Shown: piece by piece, positions 431 to 39,498 of the stretch
Position numbering within the stretch: the stretch's first letter is position 1
Layout of the letters: every line of letters begins with the position of its first letter
IMG/VR virus record: IMGVR_UViG_3300041016_000422
Span: 1-44,391 of that record
DNA from: a virus
Reading direction: 5' to 3' (one strand)
DNA: 44,391 nt
The notes under the pieces: model-generated
What the model was told of the DNA's origin: nothing
Database searches by the model: none
The model's input: only the letters and a program-made list of their open reading frames with translations
Made by a program: the position numbers and the translations under genes

Positions 431-619
431 TTACTTACCCTTGGCAATCTTCTTTTTTCCAATGGTTTTCTTTTTCCTAGCTCGACCAGTACCAGAGATG
501 GGCAAGCCGCCCGCGTCTCCGTACTTCTTTATTCCGTTCTCTACGATCATGCGGCATCTATCCCACAGGGATACGTTGTCGCGTCCGTCGTCTGCTTGGC
601 GTATGATGTTGCGGCTCAT
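431..619 (-). CDS. Small basic protein, variant copy of 44186-44374
   Basis: A 62-residue protein with a central VSLWDRCRMIVENGIKKYG segment and a very basic Lys/Arg-rich tail (RARKKK...KGK). It is nearly identical to the protein at 44186-44374; the differences fall in the last eleven residues. Its ATG overlaps the stop of the primase-helicase gene as ATGA (616-619), which suggests translational coupling. The basic tail suggests nucleic-acid binding, but no family is recognised. It precedes the endolysin gene in the same order at both window ends. Confidence 0.7.
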   Translation of the reverse strand: MSRNIIRQADDGRDNVSLWDRCRMIVENGIKKYGDAGGLPISGTGRARKKKTIGKKKIAKGK

Positions 620-636
620 GGCTTTCGGATGACTGT
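582..636. repeat. Exact 55-bp terminal repeat, left copy
   Basis: These 55 bases are identical to the last 55 bases of the window (44337-44391). Position 581 (g) differs from 44336 (c), so the identity is exactly 55 bp. A repeat this long that ends exactly at a contig end is what a k=55 de Bruijn assembly leaves where one node has two incoming paths. It marks the probable circular closure point. Confidence 0.9.
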
Positions 637-2880
637 ACGAGAGTCTTTGTCATATTCAAACTCTTCCCATGCGGCTGGGTCGTAGGCGCCAGAGTTAATC
701 TCCGCACCTACCTCGTCCGTGGCAATCGGTCCATTGGGTAAATCCAACCACTTCTTTTCCTTGCCGCCCTTGGCTGCTGCTGCGGCCAGCACCTTCTGGA
801 GGAGCATGTCGTCCACAAGGTGGGCGAATTCGCCTGGGCCAATAGATCGCAGGATCGAGGGAAGCTCACCTCGCCGGCGGTACAGGCCGGACTTGGCGTT
901 CTTGCCCTCGATTGAGTAGGGATGTCCTGCCCTGGCGGCCAGCGTGACGGCGGCGACCAGCCATGCCTGCCGCTCTAGGTAGTTGACGTCGTTGAACTTG
1001 TCCTTGTCGGTGACGTCGATGAGCGTGCCAATCTCGGTACGCAATAGCGTACGCTCTGTGTCGAGCATCTCCGGGTTGTTGGCCTTGATGATTGCGGCCT
1101 TCCACAGGTGCTTCCGTCGGGGTACCAGACCCATGCCCTTCATGCGTCGGTCGTAGTCAGACGCATGCCATACCCCGATGGCACCTCGGAACGCACCCAG
1201 CAGGGCGGACGAACCTCGGACCTGGGATGCCATCTGCTCGGCGTTTCTGATCGGCTCGTCGCCTTGCTTCTTGATGTGGTGGATGACAATAAGGGCGGCA
1301 CCTAGCTCACCGCCGACCTGGCTGGCTACTCGGATGAATTCATTAATGACAGTCGCGCTGTTCTCCTCGCCGTGCAACACGCTGTTAAGGGTGTCGATGA
1401 CCACCAGCTGGAGGTTGGGGATCTGCCGCAGTAGGGCAAAGAATTCCAGCCACTTGCGGGATGGTCGAGACTCCTGGGTCTTGGGGTCTTTCTCGACGAG
1501 TGCGAATGCACCTCCGGAATTGATTGAAGGCAGGATAATTAGATCATCACCGGCCTCACGACGCCTGCTCCCATCCGGGTCCATGTCGGCCAAGCGGATG
1601 TGCAGTTCGTCCTTGTCATCTTCCGTGGTAAGAATGACCACGGCTCCCTTACGCATGACCGGCATGCCGCACCATGTGTCCCCATCTCGGCGAGCGGTAA
1701 TCTTGAGGGCTAGATCCAGGACCATGAAGGTCTTGCCGGCTCCGCCTTCGGCGACAAGCAGCTGGTGCTTGGCCGCCTGTAGCCAATTCTGAACGAGGAA
1801 CTGACGCTCCGGTCGAGGGGCGAGGCTCCACCGGTGGGCGGCCCACACGGCCAAGCCCTTGCCTTCGTCGAGGATCGGCTTCTCTGGTTCGGGCATGGGT
1901 CCGTTGTTGTGGATGTCATTACGGAGCAGGCCAAGCCACTCGGTGTCGAACCTGGCCTCCGGCCAAGGCGGGGACATGTGGGCCTGCATCCAGCCGTAGG
2001 TGGCAAGCCTGGCCGCATCGAGGGTCATCTTGCCGATGCGAGCTGTGTGAATGTAATGGCCGGCGACGCCGTTGAATGCGGACCACCGGGTGGTACCTTC
2101 ACCGCCGGCGTTGACGTTCTCGGTCAGCATATCGACGGCAGGGGTGTGCGTCCTGGGCATGAGGGGATCTGCCGGCACTTCCTTGATCGCCCATTCAGAT
2201 TCGGGCATGCGTGCGGCTGAAGCACAAGGTGCGGTGACGATTGCTGTCGGATCGTGACGCTCGATGACGACAAGACGCTTCACGCCGGACTTGCCGTGGA
2301 TTGAACCGGCCACACGGATAGGCTGGTGGGCGCGACCATAAGGATTGCCGTCCACGCCCAGTCCGAATTGGATGTCCGCTCCTGCCTTGCGGGCGATGTA
2401 GTCTCGGACGGCCACGATGTGGGCAACCTCAAGACCCTCGACCTGCCAGTAGGCATGACGCTTTGCCCTGCCTTCCTCGGTCATGCCACCGGACAGCACG
2501 ACCATCGCCGCCGGCCCAAAGTTCTGCTCCACGAAGGCCAGCTTGGCGTCGGTGTCGCCGGTGTCGAAGTCTGCACATACTGTGCGGAACACGTCGCAGT
2601 TCTCGGCGGTACCACGGTCCTCTTTGAGTGTGCAAGGGACGATGAATGTTGCGACGTCGTGCTGTCCCCACCTAGTGGCGTGGAAGATCACGGCTGACAC
2701 GAACCTATCCCATCCCATACGCTCTGGCTCCAGGAAGATGTCCTCACGGAATACGCCCTCTCTGGACGTACCTTTTTCGCCGATGCCACGGATGCACACG
2801 AAGCCCTTGGCTTCCTTGCCGAACAGCAGTTCGACATGGGTAGCTACGGCGTCGTTATCAATGGGAATCATGTCGCTCAT
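616..2880 (-). CDS. Primase-polymerase / RecA-fold replicative helicase fusion
   Basis: The 754-residue product has two parts. Residues about 95-200 carry archaeo-eukaryotic-primase-like motifs: ADFDTGD (Asp104, Asp106), KRHAYW (His142) and QPIRVAGSIHGK. Residues about 365-600 are a RecA/DnaB-type ATPase with Walker A AEGGAGKT (377-384), Walker B LQLVVIDT (Asp496) and a following HHIKK. This is the RepA-like AAA_25 helicase class joined to a primase, the likely initiator and helicase of phage replication. The start is ATG at 2880, preceded directly by CCCAAC. It is the last large gene of the leftward replication block, and its stop overlaps the next gene. No separate DNA polymerase gene is visible in the window. 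Confidence 0.85.
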   Translation of the reverse strand: MSDMIPIDNDAVATHVELLFGKEAKGFVCIRGIGEKGTSREGVFREDIFLEPERMGWDRFVSAVIFHATRWGQHDVATFIVPCTLKEDRGTAENCDVFRTVCADFDTGDTDAKLAFVEQNFGPAAMVVLSGGMTEEGRAKRHAYWQVEGLEVAHIVAVRDYIARKAGADIQFGLGVDGNPYGRAHQPIRVAGSIHGKSGVKRLVVIERHDPTAIVTAPCASAARMPESEWAIKEVPADPLMPRTHTPAVDMLTENVNAGGEGTTRWSAFNGVAGHYIHTARIGKMTLDAARLATYGWMQAHMSPPWPEARFDTEWLGLLRNDIHNNGPMPEPEKPILDEGKGLAVWAAHRWSLAPRPERQFLVQNWLQAAKHQLLVAEGGAGKTFMVLDLALKITARRDGDTWCGMPVMRKGAVVILTTEDDKDELHIRLADMDPDGSRRREAGDDLIILPSINSGGAFALVEKDPKTQESRPSRKWLEFFALLRQIPNLQLVVIDTLNSVLHGEENSATVINEFIRVASQVGGELGAALIVIHHIKKQGDEPIRNAEQMASQVRGSSALLGAFRGAIGVWHASDYDRRMKGMGLVPRRKHLWKAAIIKANNPEMLDTERTLLRTEIGTLIDVTDKDKFNDVNYLERQAWLVAAVTLAARAGHPYSIEGKNAKSGLYRRRGELPSILRSIGPGEFAHLVDDMLLQKVLAAAAAKGGKEKKWLDLPNGPIATDEVGAEINSGAYDPAAWEEFEYDKDSRTVIRKP

Positions 2881-2912
2881 GTTGGGTCGGGTATTCCTGG
2901 GCGTTGGGCGGC

Positions 2913-3479
2913 CTAGGTCAACTCCACAATCTCACCCTTTGCCTTGAGGGAAAGGGCCAGCCATGTTGCGGTCATGTCGTCGAGCTGCTTCATCTCCTCT
3001 GGGGGTACCACGAAAGACAGTCTGCCTGCGCCACGGAAGTGCTGGAGTCGGTCCGGTCTGATCACCTCGGCCCGGTTAGCCCAGCCCATGAAGGTCACGG
3101 CTCGGTCATTGTACTCGACTCGCATTAGGACATAGATGTCCACCAATTCCTTGGTGGTAATCTCTCCGTTGATTTCGTAAGACGGCACTAGTAGGTGGGG
3201 GTTGATGTGGTGGCTTGACTTTACCTCCACGGACTGGCCGTTGCCGGCCATGAAGTCAACGGTACCGGACCGGGGTGACACGGTGTCGTCTCGCTCCATG
3301 CTGAACAGCTTGGAGAAGGCGATCTCACCCAGCAGACCGACCAAGTCCATGACGGCACCGGATTGCTTGCCGACGTGCTGGTCTGGGACGCCGGCGGCCC
3401 GGCTCGACTCATGCCTGGCAAGGCTTTCAGCCTCGGCCTGGGTCATGGTGATGTCGTCCAGCTTGATGCGGAGTTTCAC
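2913..3479 (-). CDS. PD-(D/E)XK-like nuclease-fold protein
   Basis: 188 residues. Glu52 (LLGEIAF), Asp75 (TVDFMAG) and Glu85-x-Lys87 (SVEVKSS) are spaced like the E...D...ExK core of restriction-endonuclease-fold proteins. The rest is unfamiliar. I chose the GTG at 3479 because it overlaps the preceding stop as GTGA (3476-3479), a coupling used repeatedly in this genome; an internal ATG twelve codons or so later is the alternative. It sits one gene downstream of a cytosine methyltransferase, so a nuclease acting on unmodified DNA is possible, but a replication or repair role is equally compatible. Confidence 0.6.
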   Translation of the reverse strand: MKLRIKLDDITMTQAEAESLARHESSRAAGVPDQHVGKQSGAVMDLVGLLGEIAFSKLFSMERDDTVSPRSGTVDFMAGNGQSVEVKSSHHINPHLLVPSYEINGEITTKELVDIYVLMRVEYNDRAVTFMGWANRAEVIRPDRLQHFRGAGRLSFVVPPEEMKQLDDMTATWLALSLKAKGEIVELT

Positions 3480-3775
3480 AGGCTTCTGATAAAAATTGGA
3501 GTCTGCTCGCCGACATATGATCCCATGACATTGAAAGACATGTGTTCGATGGCGTCCTCTTCTGACATGCCGTCGGCCATTAAAACACGGACGCAAGTCT
3601 CGTAGTCATAGACCACACGCACGTCGCCGGATTCAGTCAATCCGACGATAGCTGCGTCGAATCCGTCAGCCGTAAGGGTTGTGGTATCGCTTTCCTCGAC
3701 GTATTGTTCAAGGCTCTTGCGGTTTTCTTTGGCCTGCTTCTTGAGCATGGCTTTTTCGGTTTTGTGGATACTCAT
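3476..3775 (-). CDS. Hypothetical small protein
   Basis: 99 residues, starting MSIHKTEKAMLKKQAK, with a charged helical N-terminus and an acidic middle (EESD, MSEEDAIEHM). The family is not recognised. The ATG at 3775 is chosen because it is preceded directly by the CCCAAC leader typical of this operon; the longer upstream frame overlaps the methyltransferase gene and looks spurious. Its TGA overlaps the GTG of the next gene. Confidence 0.65.
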   Translation of the reverse strand: MSIHKTEKAMLKKQAKENRKSLEQYVEESDTTTLTADGFDAAIVGLTESGDVRVVYDYETCVRVLMADGMSEEDAIEHMSFNVMGSYVGEQTPIFIRSL

Positions 3776-3782
3776 GTTGGGA

Positions 3783-4394
3783 TTAAATATTGCTCCATTG
3801 GGAAGCCATTGCGTCAGCAATACCCTGGAAGGTCTTCGACCTGGCCTTCGCACGCTGGGACTGGGGGAGGCATGACGTTTCGTAGAACCAATCGCTCATC
3901 TTCTTTGTCTTCCCGGTCTTCGGGCTGATCCACATCTTATATCCGCCCTTCTCCACGATGTTGGTTGGCTTGAGCAATGGCAGGTTCTTCAGCCAAAGGC
4001 ATGTTGCCTTCGTCGTGCTATGCCCAAACTGCCAAGGGTTAATTACTTGGTCTGGCTTTCTGATCCTTGAACTGATTATCGAAACAGGGTTTTCGATGGC
4101 GATCATATTGATGTTCGCATCCATCATCCTCCTTACGAAATTCAAAGCTTCTTCTTGCCTGCCGTCGGCGATCTTCTTTGCGAAGTGTGCGGCGCCGCTC
4201 ACGGCAAGGTGCGTGCAAGGCGGGTGAGCAATCATCATGTCCCATCCTTGGTCCATGATGTCGAACACGTCACCTTGGTAGTGCGGCCCAGGGACATCGG
4301 TCGGGAGGATATCACAGGACATTGCGTCATGCCCTGCTTTTATGAATGCGTCTCGGACTGTGCCGGAATACTCGCATGCGATTAGTACTTTCAT
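3783..4394 (-). CDS. DNA cytosine-5 methyltransferase-like protein
   Basis: 203 residues. MKVLIACEYSG is a Rossmann-type AdoMet-binding start. HPPCTHLAVSG contains the Pro-Pro-Cys of C5 methyltransferases (Cys60 as the probable nucleophile), and AIENPVS (Glu101-Asn102) fits the ENV-type motif IV. It belongs to the short phage Dcm-like family, smaller than cellular C5 methyltransferases and lacking an obvious long target-recognition domain. It probably modifies phage DNA to evade host restriction. It starts at ATG 4394 with CCCAACACC upstream (4402-4410). The neighbouring PD-(D/E)XK protein may be a functional partner. Confidence 0.75.
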   Translation of the reverse strand: MKVLIACEYSGTVRDAFIKAGHDAMSCDILPTDVPGPHYQGDVFDIMDQGWDMMIAHPPCTHLAVSGAAHFAKKIADGRQEEALNFVRRMMDANINMIAIENPVSIISSRIRKPDQVINPWQFGHSTTKATCLWLKNLPLLKPTNIVEKGGYKMWISPKTGKTKKMSDWFYETSCLPQSQRAKARSKTFQGIADAMASQWSNI

Positions 4395-4413
4395 GTCGGT
4401 TGGTGTTGGGAAA

Positions 4414-5193
4414 TTACCAAGCCCATCCCTTGGGCTGTTCGACCGGGGCGATGACCTGTTCGGTCACGCCGTGGCAACGCTTCTTGTAGTCGCACCACTT
4501 GCACTTAAAGTCATCGACGCCTCGACCGATGCGGCCAAGCTGCTCTGGGTTGTCGGTCTTCACGATCCGCACGGCGCGGTCGATGTACGACTGGGCGTCG
4601 CGAGCGTTGAACGGAACCATTTCAATGTGCAGTTCGCCGGTGTCTCGGTTGATGGCCGTGAACAGGCACGACAGTAGATCCTTGTAAGCCATGTAGACCT
4701 GGACCTGGGCGTAGTACACAGGCTTGGAATCCTTTAGCCCCTTCTTGACCACGTCGCTCCAGCTCTTCTCGCCGAGGGCTTTGCTCTCCCAAAGGCATGG
4801 GTAGAATACGCCGGCCAGGGCAGGGCCGTCGTTAATGATGCCATCAAGATGGCCCTTGAACTTGTCGCCGGCGTCGGAGATGCCGAACTGCTTGCCGTCA
4901 ACCTGGTGGGTCTGAAGATCAAAGCCGGCTAGGATCAGATACTCGGCGACACGCTCTTCGCCGTCATGTCCCATGTCGAAGATGCGCAAGGTGTTGGCCT
5001 TGAATTCCGCTCCTTCGTCCTTCGGCGTCATGTGGAATTCGTACGCAAGGCGACGCTCGCATTCGTCGCCGATGCGTGACGCTCCCAGGTACTGGCGTGG
5101 CACCTGCTTGTTGCGGTGTGCCTTGGTTGCTGCGTCGATCAAGGCTTTCACGCCTTCGGCAATCTCGCAGGGTTTGGTTTCTGGTTTGAACAT
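4414..5193 (-). CDS. Cas4/RecB-like PD-(D/E)XK exonuclease with Fe-S cysteines
   Basis: 259 residues. Nuclease residues are GHLDG (Asp117), LWESKA (Glu136, Lys138) and YYAQVQVYM, the QxxxY-like helix. His76 lies in GHDGEERV. Four cysteines, Cys45 (DECERR) and CKWCDYKKRC (Cys231, 234, 240), match the pattern that binds a 4Fe-4S cluster in Cas4 and AddB nucleases. A role in end resection or recombination fits the surrounding SF2 helicase, Sak4-like ATPase and SSB-like genes. The start is ATG 5193 with CCCAAC directly upstream (5194-5199). No cas genes or CRISPR array are present. Confidence 0.8.
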   Translation of the reverse strand: MFKPETKPCEIAEGVKALIDAATKAHRNKQVPRQYLGASRIGDECERRLAYEFHMTPKDEGAEFKANTLRIFDMGHDGEERVAEYLILAGFDLQTHQVDGKQFGISDAGDKFKGHLDGIINDGPALAGVFYPCLWESKALGEKSWSDVVKKGLKDSKPVYYAQVQVYMAYKDLLSCLFTAINRDTGELHIEMVPFNARDAQSYIDRAVRIVKTDNPEQLGRIGRGVDDFKCKWCDYKKRCHGVTEQVIAPVEQPKGWAW

Positions 5194-5200
5194 GTTGGGA

Positions 5201-6856
5201 TTAAATCGAAAGTACTTTGGCTTTAATAAAACGCTCGCGCCACTTCCATGTTAAAGCACATGTAGCACGGTACTTGGTCATGCCTGCGGCGGAGAATACA
5301 TCAAGCCCAAGCTGGATTAATTGCTTATCGGATGGGGGTTCGGTCAGCCAACGCTTGCTCTTCCGGGCTGCGTCCTTGTCGCCATGCTCACGGAGGTAGT
5401 CGTCTGCGGATGCTACGGCCTGGAGCCGGTCGTCGGTCACGGAGATTAGGGTGGCGCCGGTGGCACCATCCTTGCCGCCGATGGCGTACTGCTTGCCGTC
5501 GTGTTGTAGTACGCAAACCCATGCGGTCATGGCCGATGCAATGGTAACCATGCCGTCCCAGAAAGACTCCCACCGGAAGGGGGACATGTCCATGATCTCT
5601 ACCTCGGTGAGGGTAAAGTTGACTAGGTCGCCACGTTCCTCGGCTTCCTTCTGGCGACGCTCGACGCCGTCAAAGATATGCTCACAGGCTGGGCATACTG
5701 CCACGCCTAGGGGTACTTCCATCTTGCAGGAAGGGCAGACCTTGGTCTTCGCCTCGCCCTTGACCGGCTCCAGCACGACGTCCGTGTCTAGTCCGCCGTG
5801 GGTAAGGATTGAGTAACCAAAGTCTAGGACCACGCAGTCAGACTTAATGGATCCGGGGTGCTTCTCTGGGTCTACCTTGCGTAGCCCACGCCCGATCATT
5901 TGAATCATGGTAGACTTAAATGAGCATGGACGCAGCAGGATAACACAGCTAACCGTCTGGCAGTCATAGCCTTCGGTCAGCACGGCCACGTTGACCAGCA
6001 CCTGGGTGCGGTCCTTCTCAAAGTCAATGAGTGCGCGACGTCGGTCACCGTCTGACAGGTTGCCGTGGACGATATCGGCCTTGATACCGGCGTCGCAGAA
6101 AGCTTGGGTCACATGCTCCGCATGCTCAACGGTTGAGCAGAAAGCTATGGTCTTCCGAGTGCCAGCCTTCTCTCGCCACTCGGCGATGACACGCTCGGTG
6201 ACGGCTGACTTGTCCATGATCGCCTCGACCTCGGCCATGTCGAAGTCGGCAACGGTACGCTTCACGCCGGCCAGTTCGGACCGCAGCCCGCAGTCGATGA
6301 CGAACACCCTAGGGCGGACTAGGTTGCCGGCGTCGATCAGCTCTTTGATGGAGATGACGTCGGCGACGTTGGAGAATACTGCGGCGAGGGCTTTCTTGTC
6401 GGCACGCTGTGGTGTGGCTGTGACGCCGAAGATATGTACCGAAGGGTTGATCTCCCTAGCCCGGTCAATGATGCGGAGGTAGGAATCTGCGGCCACATGG
6501 TGGGCTTCGTCGATGACGAGTAGGTCCACAGGTGGCATGGTGGCTAGGTTCTCATCCCTCGCCAGGGTCTGAACCATAGCAAAGGTGACGCCATCGGACC
6601 AGCGTTTGCGGTCTGCGGCGAATATGTCGGTCGGAGTATCGGCGTCGATCCTCCGGTAGGTGGCTCGGTTCTGGGCGACCAGTTCGTCTCGATGCTGTAG
6701 GACGATGGTCTTGCCTTTGCCTGCATGCTTGATGACGGATGACAGCATGACAGTCTTGCCGGCGCCGGTGGGGGCGACGCCTAGCGTGTTACCCTTTTCC
6801 TTGAGGGCGTAGTTAACCTTGTGAACGAAGTCCACCTGCCTAGGTCGGAGCTTCAT
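5201..6856 (-). CDS. SF2 DEAH-box helicase
   Basis: 551 residues. Motif I is APTGAGKT (about 28-35), motif II DEAH (116-119), motif III TATPQR (146-151) and motif VI QMIGRGLRK (about 319-327). After the helicase core, CPSC...CPAC (Cys374, 377, 388, 391) forms a likely zinc ribbon. This is the ResIII/UvsW-like class that unwinds branched DNA or drives replication restart. The ATG overlaps the stop of the upstream small ORF as ATGA (6853-6856). The zinc-ribbon tail may add DNA binding. Confidence 0.85.
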   Translation of the reverse strand: MKLRPRQVDFVHKVNYALKEKGNTLGVAPTGAGKTVMLSSVIKHAGKGKTIVLQHRDELVAQNRATYRRIDADTPTDIFAADRKRWSDGVTFAMVQTLARDENLATMPPVDLLVIDEAHHVAADSYLRIIDRAREINPSVHIFGVTATPQRADKKALAAVFSNVADVISIKELIDAGNLVRPRVFVIDCGLRSELAGVKRTVADFDMAEVEAIMDKSAVTERVIAEWREKAGTRKTIAFCSTVEHAEHVTQAFCDAGIKADIVHGNLSDGDRRRALIDFEKDRTQVLVNVAVLTEGYDCQTVSCVILLRPCSFKSTMIQMIGRGLRKVDPEKHPGSIKSDCVVLDFGYSILTHGGLDTDVVLEPVKGEAKTKVCPSCKMEVPLGVAVCPACEHIFDGVERRQKEAEERGDLVNFTLTEVEIMDMSPFRWESFWDGMVTIASAMTAWVCVLQHDGKQYAIGGKDGATGATLISVTDDRLQAVASADDYLREHGDKDAARKSKRWLTEPPSDKQLIQLGLDVFSAAGMTKYRATCALTWKWRERFIKAKVLSI

Positions 6857-7017
6857 TGAATAAAAGTGGGGGGTGGCGGGAGAGGCAAACCCAACATCTG
6901 CGTCACCGCTGCGAGCGTAGACGGAAGTTGCTGGACCGACGGCCAGGTTGTCGTCTCGCTCTCACCCTTGATGTTAAGGAGCAAAAGGACAAACGTCCCT
7001 TGATAAGATGCTGACAT
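6853..7017 (-). CDS. Small ORF under a large hairpin, unknown function
   Basis: 54 residues starting MSASYQGTFVLLLLN and ending in a proline run (LPLPPPPTFIQ). Nothing is recognised. Support for it being real is the ATGA overlap with the SF2 helicase start and the absence of other coding potential here. The ATG at 7015-7017 lies at the loop/3'-arm junction of the inverted repeat at 6994-7053; a second in-frame ATG at 7036-7038 lies within the 5' arm. Folding of the mRNA could therefore hide either start. No CCCAAC leader is present. Confidence 0.4.
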   Translation of the reverse strand: MSASYQGTFVLLLLNIKGESETTTWPSVQQLPSTLAAVTQMLGLPLPPPPTFIQ

Positions 7018-7053
7018 ATTATTCTCGTTTGTCAGCATCTTAATCAAGGGACG
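6994..7053. repeat. Near-perfect 23/24-nt inverted repeat with 13-nt loop
   Basis: Arms at 6994-7016 and 7030-7053 are reverse complements apart from one extra base in the right arm. The loop is 7017-7029. It lies between the SSB-like gene and the SF2 helicase gene. In the leftward transcript the hairpin is followed by TTTGTCCTTTTG, a poor U-tract, so it may be an imperfect terminator, an RNase site or a translation-control element for the small ORF starting inside it. Confidence 0.85.
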
Positions 7054-7069
7054 CCTGGATGGTGTCCGA

Positions 7070-7663
7070 TTAGAACGGATTGGAGGAAGACGGAGTCTTC
7101 ACCCAACCCGGAGCAGCCGTCGGGGCAGGGGCGGAGAAGGCCGCAGAGCGAGCCTGTTCCACCACGCCAGACTGGCCGGCAATCAGCTTCTGGAAGTCGC
7201 GGTAGCCACCGGAAGCGGCGTTGGGCGACAGCCATTCGCCGACCTTGTTCTTGTCGGCGTAGGCCGGATCGGTGTTCTTCTCGACCTTGACCTTGATGGC
7301 GACACGCTGGCCGTCCATGAAGTTCATAATGGCGAGAGTTTCCTTGCCGGTGAAAGCCTCGTAGGACTTCGGGTCAGCGACCTTGAAGTGACCGCTGGAC
7401 TCGAAGATGCGGGTGATGGACGTGATGCCCATCTTGCGCCACTTCTCGCCGTTGCGGTCGTCCTGGACGTCGGGGATCATGTCGAAGACCTTACGGCCCT
7501 CATACTCGCCGCCGATGATCGTGAGAGTCACCGGGTAGTAGGTGCCGCCGCTGGTCTTCGACTGCTTGGCACCGCTGACGGTGACCAACGCCCATGCGAG
7601 GGTGCCGTTGGGGATGAGTTCCGGGGCCGAGCCGGCGCCGGAGGTGGGGGAGAACATGCTCAT
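7070..7663 (-). CDS. Probable single-stranded-DNA-binding protein (DUF669-like)
   Basis: 197 residues. A compact N-terminal domain (GTLAWALVTVSG, YYPVTLTIIGGEYEGRKVFD) resembles the OB-like core of phage DUF669-type proteins. An Ala/Pro-rich linker (SAPAPTAAP) and a short tail ending PSSSNPF follow. The layout is like SSBs, although the tail is not acidic. It lies directly downstream of the Sak4-like ATPase, a common pairing in phage recombination modules. The upstream gene ends in codons that spell CCCAACACC about 13 bases before this ATG, which may supply the leader motif. Confidence 0.6.
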   Translation of the reverse strand: MSMFSPTSGAGSAPELIPNGTLAWALVTVSGAKQSKTSGGTYYPVTLTIIGGEYEGRKVFDMIPDVQDDRNGEKWRKMGITSITRIFESSGHFKVADPKSYEAFTGKETLAIMNFMDGQRVAIKVKVEKNTDPAYADKNKVGEWLSPNAASGGYRDFQKLIAGQSGVVEQARSAAFSAPAPTAAPGWVKTPSSSNPF

Positions 7664-7671
7664 GGTATGTA

Positions 7672-8541
7672 TTACTTGGTGTTGGGTTTGGGGGTGGAAG
7701 CGGGGATGGTGCGGACGAGGTTGGTATCGACACGCTTACCTTCACGAATCTTTTTGATGAGGGCGCCGAGGTCGGGAGCCTCAAGGATATCAAGGCGACC
7801 GGAGCGGTCCTTGGCGGGGTAACCCCACGGATTCTGCTGCTGGCAGCAGAAGGCACGATACATAGAGCCATCCTCATTCTTGAAGTTCTGAAGGGTGATG
7901 ACCTGGTCGAAGATACCCGGAAGCTCACGGCCAGTCTTGCTGCCCTCGATCTGCGGATTCCAAGACACACGCTTGAGGTCATCGACCTCTTGGTCGAGAA
8001 TGCCAGACAGGATGATAGACTTGCTGCTGTGCTGGAGGTGGGTCAGCCAGCGGATCATCTCTTGGCCGAGCAGTCCGTAGGCACCGCGAGTGTCCGGTTT
8101 GCCTTCACGGTTGAACGTCTCCGGCTGGACCTTGGCCCACTTGAAGCACTCACGACCGGCGACCGTGATGGAGTCGATGAAGATCGTGTCGTACTTGGCA
8201 AGGTCGATGTTGGCGAAGGCCGCCGAGACAGCCTCATGCACAGGCTTGGAGTACGGACCGGTGGCGTCGCTGGGATCGTGGCCGCCGACGTACAGGGCAA
8301 GCGCGCGGGCAATTTCCCACGGATACTTACCGAAGGTCTGGGCGACATCGCGGACGTCGATGACGTCTGCCGGCCAGTCCTGGATGGCGAGGGTGCCGGC
8401 CTCAAGGTCCACGAAGAGCGTGGTCTTGGGGTCGAGGGTGCGAGCCTGCGTGGTCTTGCCGACGCCGGCAGGGCCGAACAGGGCGATGTTGATTTTTGGG
8501 ACCGCTTTGAGGCGGTCGTCGGCCTTGATGATTTTGATCAT
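7672..8541 (-). CDS. Sak4-like RecA-fold ATPase (single-strand annealing/recombination)
   Basis: 289 residues. Walker A is FGPAGVGKTT (about 22-31), Walker B YDTIFIDS (Asp123), and a later SKSIILSG strand follows. This is the AAA_24 / phage nucleotide-binding-protein family, which includes Sak4 recombinases that work with a phage SSB; the neighbour at 7070-7663 fits that partner. The C-terminus has a basic segment followed by a Pro/Asn tail. The start is ATG 8541 with CCCAACAAAAAC upstream. Confidence 0.8.
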   Translation of the reverse strand: MIKIIKADDRLKAVPKINIALFGPAGVGKTTQARTLDPKTTLFVDLEAGTLAIQDWPADVIDVRDVAQTFGKYPWEIARALALYVGGHDPSDATGPYSKPVHEAVSAAFANIDLAKYDTIFIDSITVAGRECFKWAKVQPETFNREGKPDTRGAYGLLGQEMIRWLTHLQHSSKSIILSGILDQEVDDLKRVSWNPQIEGSKTGRELPGIFDQVITLQNFKNEDGSMYRAFCCQQQNPWGYPAKDRSGRLDILEAPDLGALIKKIREGKRVDTNLVRTIPASTPKPNTK

Positions 8542-8561
8542 GTTTTTGTTGGGTTGGGAGA

Positions 8562-9008
8562 TTAGGAAACGAAGGTGAACTTGGGTTCGCTGTACTTGAC
8601 CGTGCGGGCGTCGAGCAGCTTGTCCCGAAGGGCGTTCTCGGTGACAGCCTGGAACGTCTTCTCCGGCACGGAGAATTCGATCTTAAACATGCGCTGGACT
8701 TGGTCGTAGGGCAGGGAGCGAGCGACCAGTTCCAACTTGGGACTGTCCCACTTGACGGTGGCGCGAACCTCGGACGTGAGCTTGACGCCCTCGGACTCAA
8801 AGGTGTGCTGGCCGTGGGTCTTGCCATCCTCTTCCAGGGCGGACTTGATCACGTCGGCGAACCGGGTGGTCAGTTCCGACTGGACGTCGGCAAGTCGAGC
8901 CTTGGCGGCTTCGACGATGTTGTTCTGAATGGAGGCGGCATCGCGGAGTTCCGCGATGTCCATCTCCGTGAGAGCCTTAACGGCTGCTGCGGACTTTTTG
9001 TTTTTCAT
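8562..9008 (-). CDS. Conserved-looking phage protein, unknown function
   Basis: 148 residues: a Lys-rich start (MKNKKSAAAVKAL), a helical region likely to form a coiled coil (about 15-60), then a beta-rich half (KLTSEVRATVKWD, FKIEFSVPEKTF). I do not recognise the family. Position immediately before the Sak4-like ATPase suggests a recombination accessory role, but this is inference. It overlaps the HTH gene by 32 bases, and its leader reads CCCACCGACATG. Confidence 0.6.
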   Translation of the reverse strand: MKNKKSAAAVKALTEMDIAELRDAASIQNNIVEAAKARLADVQSELTTRFADVIKSALEEDGKTHGQHTFESEGVKLTSEVRATVKWDSPKLELVARSLPYDQVQRMFKIEFSVPEKTFQAVTENALRDKLLDARTVKYSEPKFTFVS

Positions 9009-9261
9009 GTCGGTGGGAAAGCTTCGTCTCGGCGTTGGGTGCGGAGTTCAGCAGGAAGGAGTTAAGATCGATGACACGGCCATCGCGCTTGGCAAGGTCC
9101 ATTAACTGGACGATACGGTGTGCCGGAAGGCTGTCACGTTCAGACCACTTCTCAATAGTCTTAACGGAGAGAGCGTAGCCGGCGGCGTTGAGTTTACGCC
9201 AGAGATTGATGCGACCGCCGAAGTAGGCGACCAGCTTTTGAATGTCGAGTTTGATGTCCAC
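8977..9261 (-). CDS. HTH regulator (Cro/CI-like), candidate repressor of the palindromic promoters
   Basis: 94 residues. LVAYFGGRINLWRKLNAAG followed by VKTIEKWSERDSLPAHRIVQL has the helix-turn-recognition-helix layout of small phage Cro-like repressors. The GTG at 9261 is preferred because CCCAACACC precedes it exactly (9262-9270); the upstream ATG at 9318 would place the promoter inside the gene. It is the first gene of the leftward block. Its promoter carries the palindrome 9289-9303, so autoregulation is likely, along with control of the divergent gene at 9396 and the two remote copies at 38054 and 39478. Confidence 0.7.
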   Translation of the reverse strand: MDIKLDIQKLVAYFGGRINLWRKLNAAGYALSVKTIEKWSERDSLPAHRIVQLMDLAKRDGRVIDLNSFLLNSAPNAETKLSHRHEKQKVRSSR

Positions 9262-9270: not shown

Positions 9271-9288
9271 TCCGATGAGAGGGGTATG

Positions 9289-9311
9289 CCTACTGGGTGT
9301 AGGTGCGTCAA
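9289..9311 (-). promoter_or_regulatory. Leftward early promoter with palindromic operator
   Basis: Read leftward: -35 TTGACG (9311-9306), two bases, then CCTACACCCAGTAGG (9303-9289), then CATACC as a -10-like element (9288-9283) at 17-base spacing. The palindrome fills the spacer, so a bound repressor would block polymerase. The transcript starts the HTH/replication operon. Confidence 0.65.
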
Positions 9312-9347
9312 TCACCACTTTGAATTTACTATGCTTTTTTTACAGGC

Positions 9348-9376
9348 TTGACATCTCCTACACAATGTAGGATACT
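9348..9376 (+). promoter_or_regulatory. Rightward promoter with palindromic operator
   Basis: -35 TTGACA (9348-9353), TCT, then the perfect palindrome CCTACA-CAA-TGTAGG (9357-9371) and a -10-like GATACT (9371-9376) at 17-base spacing. It drives the gene at 9396 and faces away from the leftward promoter, with an A/T-rich stretch between them. Confidence 0.7.
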
Positions 9377-11943: not shown

Positions 11944-14900
11944 TTACTTCTTGGGTTTAGGCGCGCCGGACAGACCCTCGACGATAGACTCCGAGATGTC
12001 CTTGTCGCGGGCGTAGTAGTTCACCACGCCACCCGCCACAGGGTTGAAAGCGGAGGCTCCCCCCACGGCCATAGGCTTGAGGACCGTATCCTTGACGGCC
12101 TTGGCTGCGTTGTAATTTGCGGCATCGGAGTCGCCGGCGTTAGCGACGGCCTTGTAGGCTGCTCCTCCAAGGCGACCGATGGCTTCGGGGATAGGTCCGC
12201 CGGGGAGTTGACCGCGAGAGAACCAGCGCATGGCGTATTCAAACTTCTTACCGAACATGCCGGCGTAGGATGCTGAATCGAGAGTCTTCAGTTCGTCTTC
12301 CTTTTCCAGCCAGTCGTCGCCGGAATCGGATGGGAACATAGAGGCAACAAGGGCTTTGGTGGCAATAGAAGCCGCAACAGTCATCGTCCCGCCGGCAATC
12401 ATAGGCATAGCATATTTCACGCGATCCAGAGCGGTGATTTGCGCCATCGGGTTTACCGCTCGCAGGGCTGTGTCATACATGCGGTCCTTAACTAGGTTCG
12501 CGTAGGCGTATGAGTAGTTCATCAACTGCATCAGCAGGCGACCGAAGACGTTCGTAGATCCGGCAATCTTCATGGACGCATCGGTCTGAATAGCCATTCC
12601 TGTGCTAGTACGCTGAAGCGCCTGGCGGTAGAAGATAGCTTGGCGATCACCACCCAATACGGCGGCCTGGTAATCCGCATCGTTCATATCCTTTAGGGAG
12701 GCTACGAAGTTAGCGAAGTCGGCATGATCTGCATCCGGCACACCGGCTTCACGCATCATAGCCCTAGCCGAAGATTCGGCAGACACGTCTACTCCGGCTG
12801 CGGAGAACACGTTCTGTAATGCAGAGTTTCCGTTGAACGTGCGGGCGACGTTAAGTAGATGTCCTCTGGCTATAGCCATCGACGCAGAAATCTTTGCGCG
12901 TTCTGACTGCTCCATAAGGTTGGCGCGAAGTACACGCTGGGTAAGCCAACGTGCCATCGGGCTACCTTCAACCTCCTGGTCAGAATTGAAATCGATGGCG
13001 CTATCTTGGGCGATACGTTCAAGTTCGACGTGGGTAAGTCCGAGGGTTTCAGCCAGAGCCGTGTCCATAGCCTTTCCGAACTCCTTACGACCCTTGTAGT
13101 ACTTGCGGACGGCGTTTGAGTCGTTGATTGAATTGCGAAGCTCACGACCGAAGTGCGCCCAGGTCTTGGCTACCGCCTCAATGGCGAGCAAGGGCGACCC
13201 AGTACGGATGCCGTAGGAAATCGGTTCAAGGAACAGATTGTTGATATAGCTCAACGTAAGGTAGCCGGATACGACGACGAAGTTCGCCCAGTCCATGAAC
13301 CTGGCCTGGAATCCTTTGAGTCGTTCATTGCCTACGTCCAGCGACCCACGAATAAGTTCTGCAACCTCCTCCTGTGCATCTCCGGTCAATCCATCATTGT
13401 TCAATTGAACCATCATCTGGCTGAACTTTTTACCATCTACTCCGAAGGCGCGAGTCAGTTCAGACTTTTTGACGGCTGCGTAGATGTATCGGGTAACGAC
13501 CTTGTCGATATCGTCGTCCGTGAAGGCGTCGCCAATGGCAGCCTCTTCTGTGGTAAATGTACGAGGGTCTGAATGATCCGGGAGCTTGGCTTCACGGATG
13601 CCAGAGTCGCCTAGTTGAACCTCATCGAGTCGTCCATTCTGCGCGCGCCAAGCCCAGGCTTCAGCCATCTGCTGGTAGTGAGCGTCGTCCTTTGTGTCAT
13701 GCTCGGCCTGTAGCGCGGCAATCTGCTCATCAGCCCTGTCGCGGGCGTCCTGCTGGTATTCGGCGTCCGGCTTAACCCTTCGACCGGCCTTCTGGTCTAG
13801 GTCCTTCTTTCGAGCAGCCTCTGCGTCAACGCCCTGGTTGATTTCGTCGATTGCCTTGTTGAGAAGACGCAAGTCTCGCTTCTGGTACATTTCCTTGGCC
13901 GCCGTGAAGAAAGCCTGTAAGTTCTCCTGGATCTTCTTTGAAGACCAGATGCGAGGGAAGTATCCTTCGCCGGCATCACCCATCTCCATTCCTGCTTCAG
14001 TCTGGTATTCCAAAAGCTCCTTCATCATCTGACGAAAATCAAGGACAGCCTGTCCAAGTTCGCCAGACGGAAGAGGATCTAGTCCGATGACATAGCGCCG
14101 AAATTGCTTATCCCATTCCTTGCGCTGGTCGCCATTCATATTGGCGAACTGGGTAGCAAATCGGTTTAGGATGTTAGAATACTTGTTAGCGAACTGCGCG
14201 CGAATCTGTTTAATCCGCTGCGGAATAGAGTTTGCAACAGCCTCCGTGACGGGTTTGCCGTCTGGTCCAGTCGTCGTCACTTCGGCGTCAGCATCCGGAC
14301 CTGCCTTGGTAAAGATCAAGTTCGCCAGTTTACGCATAGTAGGCGAATTGGGATTCTGGGATACATGCTCCCACATCTTATCCGCTCGGCTATCCAGGAA
14401 CCGTAGCGTGACGATGGACATAGGGAAGCGGGCTAAAACCTTCGCTCGATTCCAGATGTCCTTCATCTGCTGCTTGGTCATCTTGCCGGCCATGCTCTTG
14501 GACCATTGGGCGAACTTGATGCCGGTCTTGGCGATAAGCTTACCGATGCGGTACGCCCAAGCTGACAAAGCTTGGGGGCTAATGGACAGCAGCTTTGTCA
14601 TCGGCTTGTCTGGGTCGCCAAGTACGTCGCGTTCCCACTCGTCTAGCAGCTTCGTGATACGCTCCATGAGCGTGGCAGGGTCGCCTTGCGCGGCAGCCTT
14701 GATGTCGGCAATCAGCTTGCGTTGCTCCGGCGTGTACTGGTCTGGGATGTTGGCAGTTACTTCATTTGTCTTCGTAATCCATTCTCCATTATCCGGATCC
14801 TTGAAAGCATAAGATTCTCCGCGAGCAGATTCCTCGTAGTCCGGTCCGTTATCGAATACGTTTTCCTTTCCGAGAAGAGAAACCATACCTGCTGTCGGAC

Positions 14901-17900
14901 GGTTTAACGGGTCTTTGACGGTTGCGCTGTACGTTTCAGCTGTATTTTCTTCGCTGCGCTTTCCTCGTTCAATAATCTCTGCCTGGATTACCTTTGAAAG
15001 ACCTTTGTTACGGTGCTTCTTTTGGACGTGGATATGGTCGAGCTTTCGATTGCCGTCATAGTCGTGGTAATCAAACTCGGCAATCGTTTTTCCATCCAGT
15101 ACTACGCGACCCTTGCCAAAGTTCTCATTGTTAGGGTTATCTGCGGTGCTTCCGGATTGCTCAATAACCAGCTTTGCGCCGGCCAGATCAGCCGGCATCT
15201 TGGTAGCCTCTTGCGTGATGAAGCCACGCTTTGCAAGGTCTGCGTCGCGGTGATTGGCGACGTCGCCTGCTGGAGTTACGACTGCTCCTCGTCCGGCGTC
15301 TCGTCCGGACTGTTGATTTGCAGTTCCGGTGGCAGTAGTGCTTCCAGTTCCGCCGGGAATGGATCCGGCGCTTCCCCCAGGTACGCTATCTCCAGGTAGT
15401 TCTCGCGCGTTATCGGCGTCGATGTCGCTCGGAGAAAGTCCATCGTCGGGTCGGAATTCGGGCTGCTTTCCAAGCCAGCTGTAGTTACCGATTCCTCCTC
15501 CGTTTTTGTCGGTGAATTTCTTTCCAACGGCAATTGATTTCCGTTGGGCTTCTGCGAGGGAGATGTTTCCATTTTTGTAAGAATTCCAAATTTTATTGAT
15601 GGCTGCAACATTTTTAGCACTCTTGAATTCCTTGGGGAATCCACCACGGATTGCCTCCCAGGTGATAGATTGCATTTCGCGGGGCAAGATGCCGACTTCG
15701 GCAGCGGCCTGGCGGTAGGCTTCGGCGTACAGGGCGTACGTTCCGCTGACCCCGACACGGTCGTCTCCAAAGGTTCCGAAGTTGTGCTTAACCTCAATGC
15801 TCTTGCCGGCCAGCGGTCGAACAAGGGCTGCCGCTACGGCATGCGTATCAATAGTGACATGTCCGTCCTTGCTGTTAGGAGCGATGATGTTGTTGTAGAA
15901 GTTACGAACCTTATGCTCTGATCCCATCTGCTGCGAAATATTAGCGATGCTTCCGTCTTCTAGGACTGAAATCGCCTTCTTGATCATAGACAGGGAACCC
16001 CATCCGTACCTTGCAATATCGCTTTCGCCTTTCTTTGGTTTTTTCTTTGCGATACCAAGCCTGTCTCCCTCCGGGGAAAGGATATAAAATGAATTATTCG
16101 TGTACGTCTCGCTGTGCATGCGAGTGAACATGGCTTTTTGAGAAAGGTCCATATCCTTGTACTTCTTACCAATAAGCTTCTTCATGTAAGCAAGCTTCTT
16201 GGCGTCGAACAACGGTCGCTCTGGCCCCTTCTTTGGCTTGGTCGTCATCTTGGTCGCCTTGTCGTACATCTCTTGCGAGAACGGATCATTCTTATGTTGG
16301 CTCGCCACTTTCATTACATACTCCGCGAGGGCCACGTTCATAAACCAATCTTTCTGCGGGGATAGGGCCGCCATTACGGCAGCTGCCTGCTCCGGCGTTG
16401 CTCCATACTTCTTTGCAAAATCTCGCGCAATTCGGTTTGCTCCGTCATACCATAGCTTGCTTCTCGCGCGTACGGCTGGGGGGACCAGGTTATGGAGCCA
16501 GATCAGATTCTCCTTAACCATTTTAACAAAACGCTCGTTCGTCTCTCTAGCCGTCTCGCCTTCGACAGGGCGCATATTGGGATATTTCAAGACGGTCTTT
16601 GCAGACTTTTCGGCCATTTCTTCGGTCGAGTTTAAAGCGTCAGTACCAATGATTAATTTCTGTGCGACAAAATCTTCAGTTGGGTTTTTGCTGTCCGGCT
16701 GTCTAGTAGAGATTTCAGATGATCCTTCATCAAACTTTGGTGCGTTAGTTACGTTAAATTCCTTTAGGTTATTAATCGTCTCTGTGGTTGTTTTACCAAC
16801 AAGCTTCAAAGCCTTATCGAAAAGTTCTTTCAATTTCTTCTGGTCAATCTTGCCAAAGCTTTCCGTGATTGACTTGGCTACGGATGGGAAGTCCTTGACG
16901 CCGCGAGCAATCATCAAGGTCATCTTCTTAACGACAAGATAGCTAAACTGTCCACCAAGACCAACGATGTCATTGGTGCGGTTATTGTCCGTGAAGTCCC
17001 TTATTTCAGCGTCTAGGTCCAGTTCGGCTTGGGCAAGCGAACCGCCCTTGGAGGCTTCCTCGATCTTCTTGCGAAGTTTATTCGCCTGCTTGCTGTCTCC
17101 CTTGCCGGCCTTCTCAAGGTTGGCTAATTGTACCCTGGCCTGCGCGACGGCCTTTGAGTCTTCCTTGGCCGTAGCATCCGGCGCCGCTTCGGTTGCGGCA
17201 GCGGCAGGTTCAGCCGCCGGAGCTGCTTCAGTAACAGGTTCTACTGGAGCAACAACCGGCGCAGTCGGAGTATCCTGGTAGTCGTACTGCTCGTCTGGAG
17301 CGGTCGGGTCGATAGGCGCGGCGTTCGGGTTGACCGGGGCGTTAGGCTTGGCGGCAGGCTGACCGGACAGGATGCGTTCAACCTTCTCCTTGTTCTGGGC
17401 GATTCGGTCGTCCAGGTTCTTGGTCTTGCGACCTTCCTTAATAGCCTTCTCGCGCGCCTTTTGGTCGTTAATGATGTTGTTATGCGCGACGTTGATCAGA
17501 CTGCGAAGGGGCTGGGCAAGACCAGCGTATCGGCGGTCGTTACGAGGATCGGTGGCGTTGACGTTGCCGGAAGGGGCAACGGTCGGGGCGGGGGCAGAAG
17601 ACACCTGCTGACCTTTTAGCTTGGCCGCGTCTTCGCGCAGGCCGGCGACGAATGAAGACTTGGGTGTTGCGCTAGGAGCGGGGGTTGGCGCCGGCTGGGC
17701 TACCTGCGGGGCAGGTGCGGGCGTCGGTGCGGGAGCAGCCTGCTGCGCGGGAGTCGGGGCAGGGGCTGCCTGGGCGGCCTTGCGACGCATGACATCTCCA
17801 TCGGATTCAAATCCGAACCTGCTGTAGAAATCCTCAAGCCTTTGTCTCTTGGCTTGATCGCCAGCAGGGATGACCATCAAATTGATGCCTAGCTTGTCAG

Positions 17901-32536: not shown

Positions 32537-34138
32537 TCAGAAGCCGCCCATCTGCAAGAGATTGCGTCGTGCTTCATCCCACTTGCCGGACAGCTTGACC
32601 CAGGCAAGGGTGCCGCTCTTGGGGACATCTGAAGGCTTTTCGTAGGTTCTGGCAGCACTTACCATAGTACTTAACAGCAGGCCGACCAGACCCATAGCGT
32701 CCACGAAGTCATCGTGTCTGGCAGATGGGAACTTGAGTAGTTCGGTTTCAGCGTCTGCCCACCAGGGGGCGAACTTGGGGAAGAATACCTTGCCCATTGC
32801 CATGCGTCCACGGATCGCCTGCGCGCGGGTCTGCTTGTCCTTAACAGGGGTAATCTCCTCCACGACGGTCCAGATGCCTCGCTCCTGCTGGACCTTACGA
32901 AGGAACGGTCCGATAGACTGGGAGATATGCCCACGCTCCGCTCCCCACTTGGCCGGCTTGTGGCGGGACATTAGGTCGATCATCCCATCGATGACCTGGT
33001 CGGTACTGGCGCGGCGCCACCACACGTCCGGCAAGATCCATACGTTGTCTTCCTCGTCCAGTCCGAATGGCATCAGCACGGTCTTGTCAGCCGTCTGTGC
33101 GGTAGACACGGCATGGTCGGATACGCAGTAGTATCGGAGGTTCTTGGGGATTTCGTGCGGGTAGGGCTTAAGCCAGTCCCTACGGAAGAAGTCGCCGTCG
33201 TCCGGCGTAGGCTTGCCCTGGTACAGGGCCGAGAATCCCTTGGCGTTCAGCCGGCGAATTTCATTCAAAAAGTCCAAGCCATAACGCTCCGGCCATAGGG
33301 CTTGACCCACAGGTCGATCCATAGGGTCGTTCTCAACGGCGATTGCCGGCAATGCCAGGATACGCCAAGCCTGTGCGTTCTCGTCGTTGTAGCAGGGATT
33401 CTTTGGGTCTGTGAGGCGACCCACTAGGTCATCCTCATGCCACCTGGTCATAATGATTACCACCCTGGCGCCGGCCATCAAGCGGGTCATAGCCACTTGA
33501 GTGAACCACTCCCACAGCTTGTCACGCTCACGCTTTGAGTCTGCTTCCTCGCGGTCCTTGATCGGGTCATCGATGACCAGTAGGTCAGCACCACGGCCAG
33601 TAAGGCCGCCACCCACGCCCACGAAGTTGGCTAGTCCGCCTTCCTCGGTCTGGAGCTTGTCGGATGACTGGCTGCCGGTCCGCAGCTTGCAGCCAGGGAA
33701 GACCTGCTTGTAGGCAGGACCGCGCATAATCTCTCTCACCGAGCGTCCGAAGTCCTGCGCCACGTCAGCGTTGTAGGTGGCGAAGATGACCTGTCGGTAT
33801 GGGTCTTTGCCCAGGAACCAGGCAGGGAAGCGGCGTGAAGCCAGTTCGGACTTACCATGTCGAGGCGGCATGGAGATAATCAGACGCTGGTACGTCCCAC
33901 GCTCCACCTGCTCCAGGGCCGCACAGATCGTGGCGTGGTGCTTGACCGGCTGGTAGCGGGACTTGTCTACGTTGTCTGGGTCTTCCGGGTCTGGCATGGT
34001 CATCGACGTGAAGTCGATGAGAGACTCCCTCGCGCGCTTGACGCGGAGAAGCCGGGTAGCAGCCGCCAGTTGCGACTCCACCTCGGCAATCTCGGCCTGC
34101 CTGCGTTTCTCTTCGGCGTTGGTTGCCTTGCGCGCCAT
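32537..34138 (-). CDS. Terminase large subunit
   Basis: 533 residues. ATPase: PPRHGKSELAS (Walker A, 91-100), LLVIDDP (Walker B, Asp190-Asp191), then VVIIMTRWHEDDLVGRL as the coupling region. C-terminal nuclease-like segment follows (YYCVSDHAVS with acidic residues, KWGAERGHISQS, RHDDFVDAMGL). This is the headful-type packaging motor family. Its ATG shares a base with the tail-fibre stop. The small subunit is about 9 kb away (42769-43305). Confidence 0.85.
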   Translation of the reverse strand: MARKATNAEEKRRQAEIAEVESQLAAATRLLRVKRARESLIDFTSMTMPDPEDPDNVDKSRYQPVKHHATICAALEQVERGTYQRLIISMPPRHGKSELASRRFPAWFLGKDPYRQVIFATYNADVAQDFGRSVREIMRGPAYKQVFPGCKLRTGSQSSDKLQTEEGGLANFVGVGGGLTGRGADLLVIDDPIKDREEADSKRERDKLWEWFTQVAMTRLMAGARVVIIMTRWHEDDLVGRLTDPKNPCYNDENAQAWRILALPAIAVENDPMDRPVGQALWPERYGLDFLNEIRRLNAKGFSALYQGKPTPDDGDFFRRDWLKPYPHEIPKNLRYYCVSDHAVSTAQTADKTVLMPFGLDEEDNVWILPDVWWRRASTDQVIDGMIDLMSRHKPAKWGAERGHISQSIGPFLRKVQQERGIWTVVEEITPVKDKQTRAQAIRGRMAMGKVFFPKFAPWWADAETELLKFPSARHDDFVDAMGLVGLLLSTMVSAARTYEKPSDVPKSGTLAWVKLSGKWDEARRNLLQMGGF

Positions 34139-35779: not shown

Positions 35780-35804
35780 TGTAGGAGAAAGTTTTTTGCC
35801 TACA
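35780..35804. repeat. TGTAGG-N13-CCTACA inverted repeat
   Basis: The same half-sites as the early operators but facing outward, 13 bases apart, upstream of the late block. It could be a variant binding site or a small hairpin (the loop includes TTTTTT). Confidence 0.5.
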
Positions 35805-36215: not shown

Positions 36216-36671
36216 ATGAAACCCACCACCGCAAATGCCAACATCGCCAGCCGCAGGCTCCGCAACGCTTACGGCGTCGCACCGCTCGCCGACGGCCTGC
36301 TCACCCCGGCCAAGGCCCAGGCTTTCGCCGACGCCTTCACCGCCAGCCAGCCGAATGAGGCTGTCGCCAAGCGGTTCGACGATGTCGCCGACGGCTTCTG
36401 GTACATCACCCTGGACGCCGCCCGCTTCTGGGTCGCCAGCATGAGCGTGGAAGCCCGCTGTGAATTGTTCGACTGCGAGACGCTCATGGGCTGGTTCGTC
36501 GAGGAGTGCGGCGACGAGTCTGACGCCGACGGCGACTTCTGCTCGACCCCCGGATGCGACGGCGAGCAGGACTTCGACGACATCATGGCCGACATGGCTA
36601 ACTGCTCCAGGGCTGGCCTGCTCATGGTCGAGGTGCCTGGGGCTGGGTACGACGACGCCATCGCCAAGTAA
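36216..36671 (+). CDS. Rightward cluster gene 1, unknown
   Basis: 151 residues. Basic N-terminus (ASRRLRNAYG), then an acidic second half (EECGDESDADGDFC, DFDDIMADM). No family recognised. The ATG at 36216 follows an A-rich leader (CCAATAAATACCGAC) rather than CCCAAC; the frame is open further upstream through the unusual intergenic sequence, which I take as chance. It opens a tight cluster of thirteen small genes with C-rich third positions. Confidence 0.6.
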   Translation: MKPTTANANIASRRLRNAYGVAPLADGLLTPAKAQAFADAFTASQPNEAVAKRFDDVADGFWYITLDAARFWVASMSVEARCELFDCETLMGWFVEECGDESDADGDFCSTPGCDGEQDFDDIMADMANCSRAGLLMVEVPGAGYDDAIAK

Positions 36672-36699
36672 CCCTTCCCACACCCAACCCAGCACCACC

Positions 36700-36930
36700 A
36701 TGACCAACCACGCCCACGCCCTCCGCTCCGCCCTGCTCTGGCACGCCAGCCAGGCGGACGCACGCCCCGGACTCGTCTTAACCGACGAGGCTCTGGCCGT
36801 CCTTAACCTCGCCGTCTCGTACCTCTGCGAGATTGACCGCACCACGCCCGCCGAACGCCGCAAGGCCACCCACCGCATGTGCAAGCCGGCGAACCGACTC
36901 CGCAACCTGGCCGCCCTGCTCAACCGCTAA
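36700..36930 (+). CDS. Rightward cluster gene 2, unknown
   Basis: 76 residues, helical, Ala/Leu-rich (LVLTDEALAVLNLAVSYL) with a basic C-terminal half (ERRKATHRM). The start at 36700 is supported by the leader CACCCAACCCAGCACCACC. Not recognised. Confidence 0.6.
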   Translation: MTNHAHALRSALLWHASQADARPGLVLTDEALAVLNLAVSYLCEIDRTTPAERRKATHRMCKPANRLRNLAALLNR

Positions 36931-38045: not shown

Positions 38046-38074
38046 TCGACAACCCTCCACCCTGTAGGACATAC
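38046..38074 (+). promoter_or_regulatory. Rightward promoter with operator, before gene 6
   Basis: TCGACA (38046-38051), AC, palindrome CCTCCA-CCC-TGTAGG (38054-38068, one mismatch), then ACATAC (38069-38074). Same architecture as the 9348 promoter. Confidence 0.6.
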
Positions 38075-38098
38075 CTCCCTTACCCAACACCCAGCACC

Positions 38099-38536: not shown

Positions 38537-38557
38537 CCCCTCACCAACCCCAGCACC

Positions 38558-39470: not shown

Positions 39471-39498
39471 TTGACACCCTCCAATCTGTAGGCATCCC
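39471..39498 (+). promoter_or_regulatory. Rightward promoter with operator, before gene 10
   Basis: TTGACA (39471-39476), C, palindrome CCTCCA-ATC-TGTAGG (39478-39492, one mismatch), then CATCCC. It is the fourth copy of the promoter/operator design. Confidence 0.6.

Follow-up and report, generated by a model that had tools for sequence, protein, structure and literature searches.

The known kinds of control to which the locus described here is closest are divergent Cro/CI switches, multi-site repressors of the L5 type, and spacer operators such as that of Arc. At the Pant promoter of phage P22, the ribbon-helix-helix protein Arc acts from an operator located between the -35 and -10 elements and represses at the level of the core promoter. 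In TP901-1, as excerpts of the published account describe it, the promoters diverge and CI operators are situated at and between them (PMC7250872). The stoperators of mycobacteriophages L5 and D29 are mostly intergenic, have the asymmetric consensus 5'-GGTGG(c/a)TGTCAAG and take effect between a promoter and its gene, and D29, which retained the sites, is apparently a lytic phage that arose by deletion from a temperate one, according to the excerpted text of the source (PMC5712189).

The locus analyzed here has something in common with each of these systems. As in Cro/CI-type switches (N15 Cro and P22 Cro by predicted fold, TP901-1 CI/MOR by layout), a small HTH protein is encoded first in the early operon, the divergent promoters are both under operators, and a conserved palindromic operator lies over the promoter of the HTH gene itself; unlike in those switches, there is one palindrome per promoter, placed in the spacer, extra copies lie ahead of accessory genes, and the divergent position holds an integrase, an XRE gene plus an integrase, or a small histone-like gene, or is empty. 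L5 and D29 are similar in that one phage repressor, here putative, is paired with many sites in the genome, but the sites described here are palindromic and mostly inside core promoters. The spacer position of the operator is shared with Arc at Pant, whereas the regulator here is an HTH protein and the operator recurs at several promoters. What sets the locus apart is one palindrome that is found mainly within spacers at several promoters, including those of accessory genes, together with a slot of variable content. We recognized no description of the operator, the HTH family, or an integrase slot with a histone-like gene in the open-access literature as covered by titles and the starts of abstracts, subscription journals being mostly outside this scope. 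We propose, with a probability of about 0.78, that the HTH protein is a Cro-like autorepressor that would block the core promoters of a phage-wide regulon from what is, in relatives, the integration/immunity locus.

Promoters of common design in the window

The window, which spans an entire IMG/VR virus record (44,391 bp), encodes terminase, portal, major capsid, and RusA proteins in addition to the features collected in table 1, and searches of the window found neither a tyrosine integrase nor an HTH_3 (CI-like) protein. In a preliminary description, the same 15-bp palindrome had been placed in the -35/-10 spacers of two divergent promoters, with replication genes on the leftward side and a lone small basic protein on the rightward side. 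Direct reading of the sequence bears out the palindrome in both spacers, each of which is 17 bp long; genes for replication and recombination were identified on the leftward side, and the rightward assignment of a lone small basic protein holds in the window. The divergent pair is therefore real, but it was too narrow a description, as at least four promoters share the design.

The final G of the rightward palindrome is at the same time the first base of the -10 GATACT (position 9371 is common to both). A sigma-70 scan of the region detected the rightward promoter, which matched at 10/12, and the leftward promoter is absent from the list of that scan; the leftward -10 is poor, reading CATACC in the window and CACAAC in 11 of the 16 close relatives. 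The pattern TTGACN{1,4}CCTMCN5GTAGG, which combines promoter and palindrome, has three exact matches in the window (the third at 39471-39492) versus none in 100 dinucleotide shuffles, and the palindrome pattern alone, applied loosely with up to two mismatches, has 19 matches in the window versus 7.1 expected.

Table 1. Promoters, operators, and genes in the window (positions in bp; + rightward, - leftward).
Feature	Position	Strand	Remarks
Leftward -35, TTGACG	9306..9311	-	read from sequence; invariant in 17/17 aligned sequences
Leftward operator, CCTACACCCAGTAGG	9289..9303	-	fills spacer; 2 bp (CA) after -35
Leftward -10-like element, CATACC	9283..9288	-	weak; 17 bp from -35
Rightward -35, TTGACA	9348..9353	+	sequence and sigma-70 scan
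Rightward operator, CCTACACAATGTAGG	9357..9371	+	fills spacer; 3 bp (TCT) after -35
Rightward -10, GATACT	9371..9376	+	sigma-70 scan; 17-bp spacer
Third promoter, TCGACA, CCTCCACCCTGTAGG (38054-38068), CATACC	38046..38075	+	same site in L064 and L038
Fourth promoter, TTGACA, CCTCCAATCTGTAGG (39478-39492), CATCCC (weak)	39471..39498	+	same site in L034, L038, and L064
HTH protein, 94 aa, Cro/YdaS-like	8977..9261	-	GTG start; first leftward early operon gene; proposed autorepressor
Leftward early genes behind the HTH gene	616..9008	-	replication/recombination
phrog_2480 protein	8562-9008	-	
Sak4-like protein	7672-8541	-	
SSB-like protein	7070-7663	-	
Helicase	5201-6856	-	
Cas4-type exonuclease	4414-5193	-	
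Methyltransferase	3783-4394	-	
Primase/helicase	616-2880	-	
Small basic protein, 69 aa	9396..9605	+	sits where predicted temperate relatives have the integrase
Accessory gene, 145 aa	38099..38536	+	behind third promoter; no PHROGs match
Accessory gene, 127 aa	39514..39897	+	behind fourth promoter; no PHROGs match

The two further sites, at 38.05 and 39.47 kb, each lie 20-30 bp ahead of a rightward accessory gene, and the -35 of the third promoter is one change away from the TTGAC design. A PHROGs search with the 145-aa and 127-aa accessory proteins gave no match. Relatives with such sites ahead of accessory genes are L034, L035, L038, L042, L047, and L064, and the last of these carries a near-identical copy of the promoter at 39471 ahead of a different protein, indicating that the promoter can stay constant while the downstream gene differs. 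Rightward accessory genes in the region 36217-40792 begin after C-rich leaders, for example CCCAACACC-ATG, without an evident Shine-Dalgarno sequence. At 35780-35804, just upstream of the leftward gene 34138-35733, the half-sites TGTAGG and CCTACA point outwards and are 13 bp apart.

Elsewhere in the window, positions 11944-20367 encode a protein of 2807 residues with long Pro/Ala-rich stretches that is probably a large virion protein, and positions 43286-43720 encode a second putative DNA-binding protein, which matches PHROG 323 (transcriptional regulator, D5-like; E 3.5e-7). Three queries against INPHARED phages, namely the 801-bp region, the HTH protein, and the small protein, gave no match, and a scan of GTDB genome contigs with the HTH alignment returned zero relatives, so that no host was found by this route.

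The operator and the HTH protein in related loci

The HTH protein of the window has no Pfam or PHROGs match at E up to 0.1. Within its family, six of 11 members match Pfam P22_Cro weakly (best E 0.0028) and five of 11 match Pfam YdaS weakly (best E 0.0018), the window protein itself being unmatched by either. The structure closest to its predicted model (mean pLDDT 62, low confidence) according to VIA is N15 Cro (Z 6.0, rmsd 2.6, 57 aligned), and Foldseek returned nothing for the model at E below 0.001. The evidence for a Cro-like fold is at most moderate. In the predicted recognition stretch, residues S32, K34, K38, W39, E41, and R42 do not vary among 11 divergent homologs.

By an alignment search of IMG/VR we identified 77 loci with HTH homologs that are 34-96% identical to the window protein; the close relatives are 16 IMG/VR loci in which the HTH homologs are 86-96% identical. 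Every one of the 16 close relatives has the leftward operator, in identical form in 14 and with one change each in L010 and L017. The 77 loci were grouped at 85% identity into 22 clusters, and in each the 165 bp ahead of the HTH start were searched for the 15-mer scoring highest against CCTACANNNTGTAGG (maximum 12), with up to 300 control windows per cluster for comparison; the scoring consensus came from the L002 cluster, which is itself one of the 22. A score of 11 or 12 was reached upstream of the HTH gene in ten of the 22 clusters, whereas no control window reached 11; 14 clusters scored at least 10 versus 0.5% of control windows; and eight clusters scored no higher than 9, a level that about 7% of control windows attain as well. 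By the 12-point score, nothing convincing was found upstream of the HTH gene in L141 (score 7) or L123 (score 8), and L026, L141, and L142 have no clear operator copy. The composite pattern of promoter and palindrome is present in 15 of 20 related records, and the reversed control is present in 0/20. The preliminary description had also suggested a compact switch, and comparison gives good support to one run by the HTH protein, in that the candidate operator accompanies HTH homologs down to 34% identity.

Across all loci there are 44 non-redundant sites that score at least 11, versus one with the reversed consensus. When each was placed by its best -35-like neighbor, 25 of the 44 were located in the spacer, eight over the -10/+1 region, one just upstream of the -35, and one elsewhere, with the remaining nine having no -35-like neighbor. 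Stoperators of the L5 type, which are asymmetric, lie downstream of promoters, and halt elongation, were rejected on account of this placement and of the palindromic form of the sites. The clearest form is found in L144, the most distant locus (HTH protein 34% identical), where TTGACT is followed by a 17-bp spacer with CCTACAAATTGTAGG at its center and then by TATAAT; the L144 record has six sites, most of them within promoter-like spacers. In relatives in the range L114-L140, the site is often directly upstream of the -35. The half-sites are mostly constant among operator copies and the central bases vary. Upstream of the HTH gene in L095, L104, and L109, the promoter is covered by three consecutive half-sites (TGTAGG, CCTAC/CCTCC, and TGTCGG/TGGCGG).

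The same placements bear on the possibility that the HTH protein binds the palindrome but activates, or regulates dually, promoters whose -10 is too weak alone. Both the leftward and the fourth promoter have such a weak -10, and the sites directly upstream of the -35 in L114-L140 are where an activator could also sit; however, in L144 the same operator is followed by a full TATAAT, which needs no activator, and the sites occupy differing positions from -35 to +1. MerR-type activators, which bind in the spacer, act at spacers of 19-20 bp, and with spacers of about 17 bp at the promoters described here an activator of this type was set aside. We therefore regard activation as unlikely: a protein that blocks accounts better than one that activates for sites at varied places in and beside the core promoter.

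The divergent slot and the proposed regulation

Among 78 loci (the 77 loci and the window), 32 carry a divergent gene: an integrase in 20, an integrase plus an XRE gene in four, and the small gene in eight. A divergent promoter with the operator in its spacer is present in 28 of these 32 loci versus none of the 46 without a divergent integrase, XRE, or small gene, three of the 46 having short upstream sequence; as the loci are related to one another, these counts do not represent independent trials. The four loci in which the divergent site was missed (L105, L106, L121, and L144) all carry an integrase, so the site is present in 20 of the 24 loci that have an integrase or an integrase plus XRE. 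Divergent lysogeny genes under the same operator, as in Cro/CI switches, are thus found in relatives and not in the window. Integrase (PF00589) was detected in five of 14 records, and a scan of ten divergent proteins identified seven integrases and three XRE repressors. The XRE repressor occupies the divergent slot under the same operator in L094, L103, and L107; in L103 and L107, the XRE gene is followed by a further frame with an integrase-like N-terminal sequence, and tblastn found integrase and XRE together in L094, L103, L107, and L129. Seven of the 16 close relatives have both the small gene and an operator-promoter for it, and nine have neither; the rightward operator is CCTACGAAATGTAGG in the seven that have the small gene. 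By these sequence comparisons, the locus is the counterpart of the integration/immunity region in relatives predicted to be temperate, where the divergent gene is an integrase, either alone or preceded by an XRE repressor. The small gene may have replaced the integrase, or each may have been acquired and lost independently.

The XRE repressors encoded under the same operator in three loci would agree with the palindrome being the operator of another regulator, whether a host protein or a phage repressor of the XRE/CI-like kind, with the HTH gene merely among its targets. This is quite improbable, because HTH_3 is over the cut-off in only two of 15 records and was not found in the window, the operator persists without it, and the operator follows the HTH gene as far as 34% identity; a host regulator, or one outside HTH_3, keeps a small probability. 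The rarity of HTH_3 leaves the HTH family studied here as the regulator common to these records, in all of which it is present by selection, since the loci were found through HTH homology. A role of the palindromes as repeats of a replication origin or as RNA hairpins, instead of operators, is hardly credible: they flank an A-rich stretch beside the replication genes and the rightward palindrome scores as a terminator-like stem, but distant copies stand ahead of accessory genes, again behind a -35, their central bases vary around mostly constant half-sites, and sites upstream of the expected transcription start would be absent from the RNA.

The sites, their conservation, their link to the HTH gene and to divergent genes, and the contents of the slot are results of computation, whereas binding and repression by the protein, its state as a dimer, the timing, and which way genes were exchanged are inferred. 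As an autorepressor, the 94-residue HTH protein would bind, probably in dimeric form, to the palindrome CCT(A/C)CANNNTGTAGG, and because the palindrome lies within the -35/-10 spacer, RNA polymerase would be blocked once the protein is bound. Soon after infection, the promoters would still be free and would fire, the leftward output being the repressor itself and the replication/recombination operon and the rightward output being the small histone-like gene together with two or more accessory genes. With the HTH protein building up, all these promoters would be shut off together.

A more tentative proposal, to which we assign clearly less than even odds, is that a once-temperate lineage lost its integrase and that the slot now holds a minimal histone-like gene behind a promoter of the same design. 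The old lysogeny switch would then set the timing of replication genes, accessory genes, and a chromatin-type protein alike, and the operator-promoter may be a portable unit that places acquired genes under early shut-off. For a mostly uncultured phage family, represented by 77 related IMG/VR loci, the operator provides a readable control signal that can be used for predicting genes co-regulated with early replication, for spotting, at this locus, relatives that are predicted to be temperate, and for tracing how a lysogeny switch changes upon integrase loss.

The small basic protein

In published "phage histones", the histone fold is followed by a helical tetramerisation domain at the C terminus and the RxTxxxD motif is lacking, as far as the excerpted text of the source describes them (PMC11390915). 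The relatives of the 69-aa protein are 43-75% identical (14-row alignment), and a likeness to alpha3 histones (HBb of Bdellovibrio, HLp of Leptospira, and the "phage histones") comes from the profile of this family. The profile aligned over positions 8-52 with 9f2c (E 7.6e-4), which is labelled merely "hypothetical protein", and over the same positions weakly with 8fvx and 8cmp (E 0.26-0.29), of which 8cmp is free HBb, the Bdellovibrio histone, according to excerpts of its description (PMC11317129). The single window sequence, used without a profile, gave no hit; Pfam showed no histone family for the small protein, and the window protein has no Pfam or PHROGs match at E up to 0.1. TALE-repeat matches of the profile, which ranked stronger, were attributed to the HNGGK stretch and discarded as artefacts; they consist of summed fragments none of which is significant alone.

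The predicted model of the small protein (pLDDT 66) has three helices, the third of which (54-62) is short, of low confidence, and follows a long one. In VIA, histone folds reached Z 3.7 or less and ranked under unrelated Hsp70 rows, and Foldseek returned nothing significant for this model. Members of the family share G-x-x-T-x-D, in which G48, T51, and D53 are invariant; the loop of the small protein is K-x-T-x-D. RxTxxxD is absent, as it is from the "phage histones" in the excerpted description, but unlike them the small protein has no C-terminal tetramerisation domain. We consider the 69-aa protein to resemble histones by its family profile and do not call it a histone. If it were truly a histone, the switch would couple replication timing to the packaging of phage or host DNA.

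A search of GTDB contigs with the alignment of the small protein found two loci in MAGs (L082 and L083), labelled Candidatus Aquidulcis and Ignavibacteriaceae. Of 20 window proteins tested against these two stretches, none matched besides the small one, and the MAGs accordingly do not name a host. In L026, L148, and L156, a small histone-like gene lies near rusA, a location other than that in the window.
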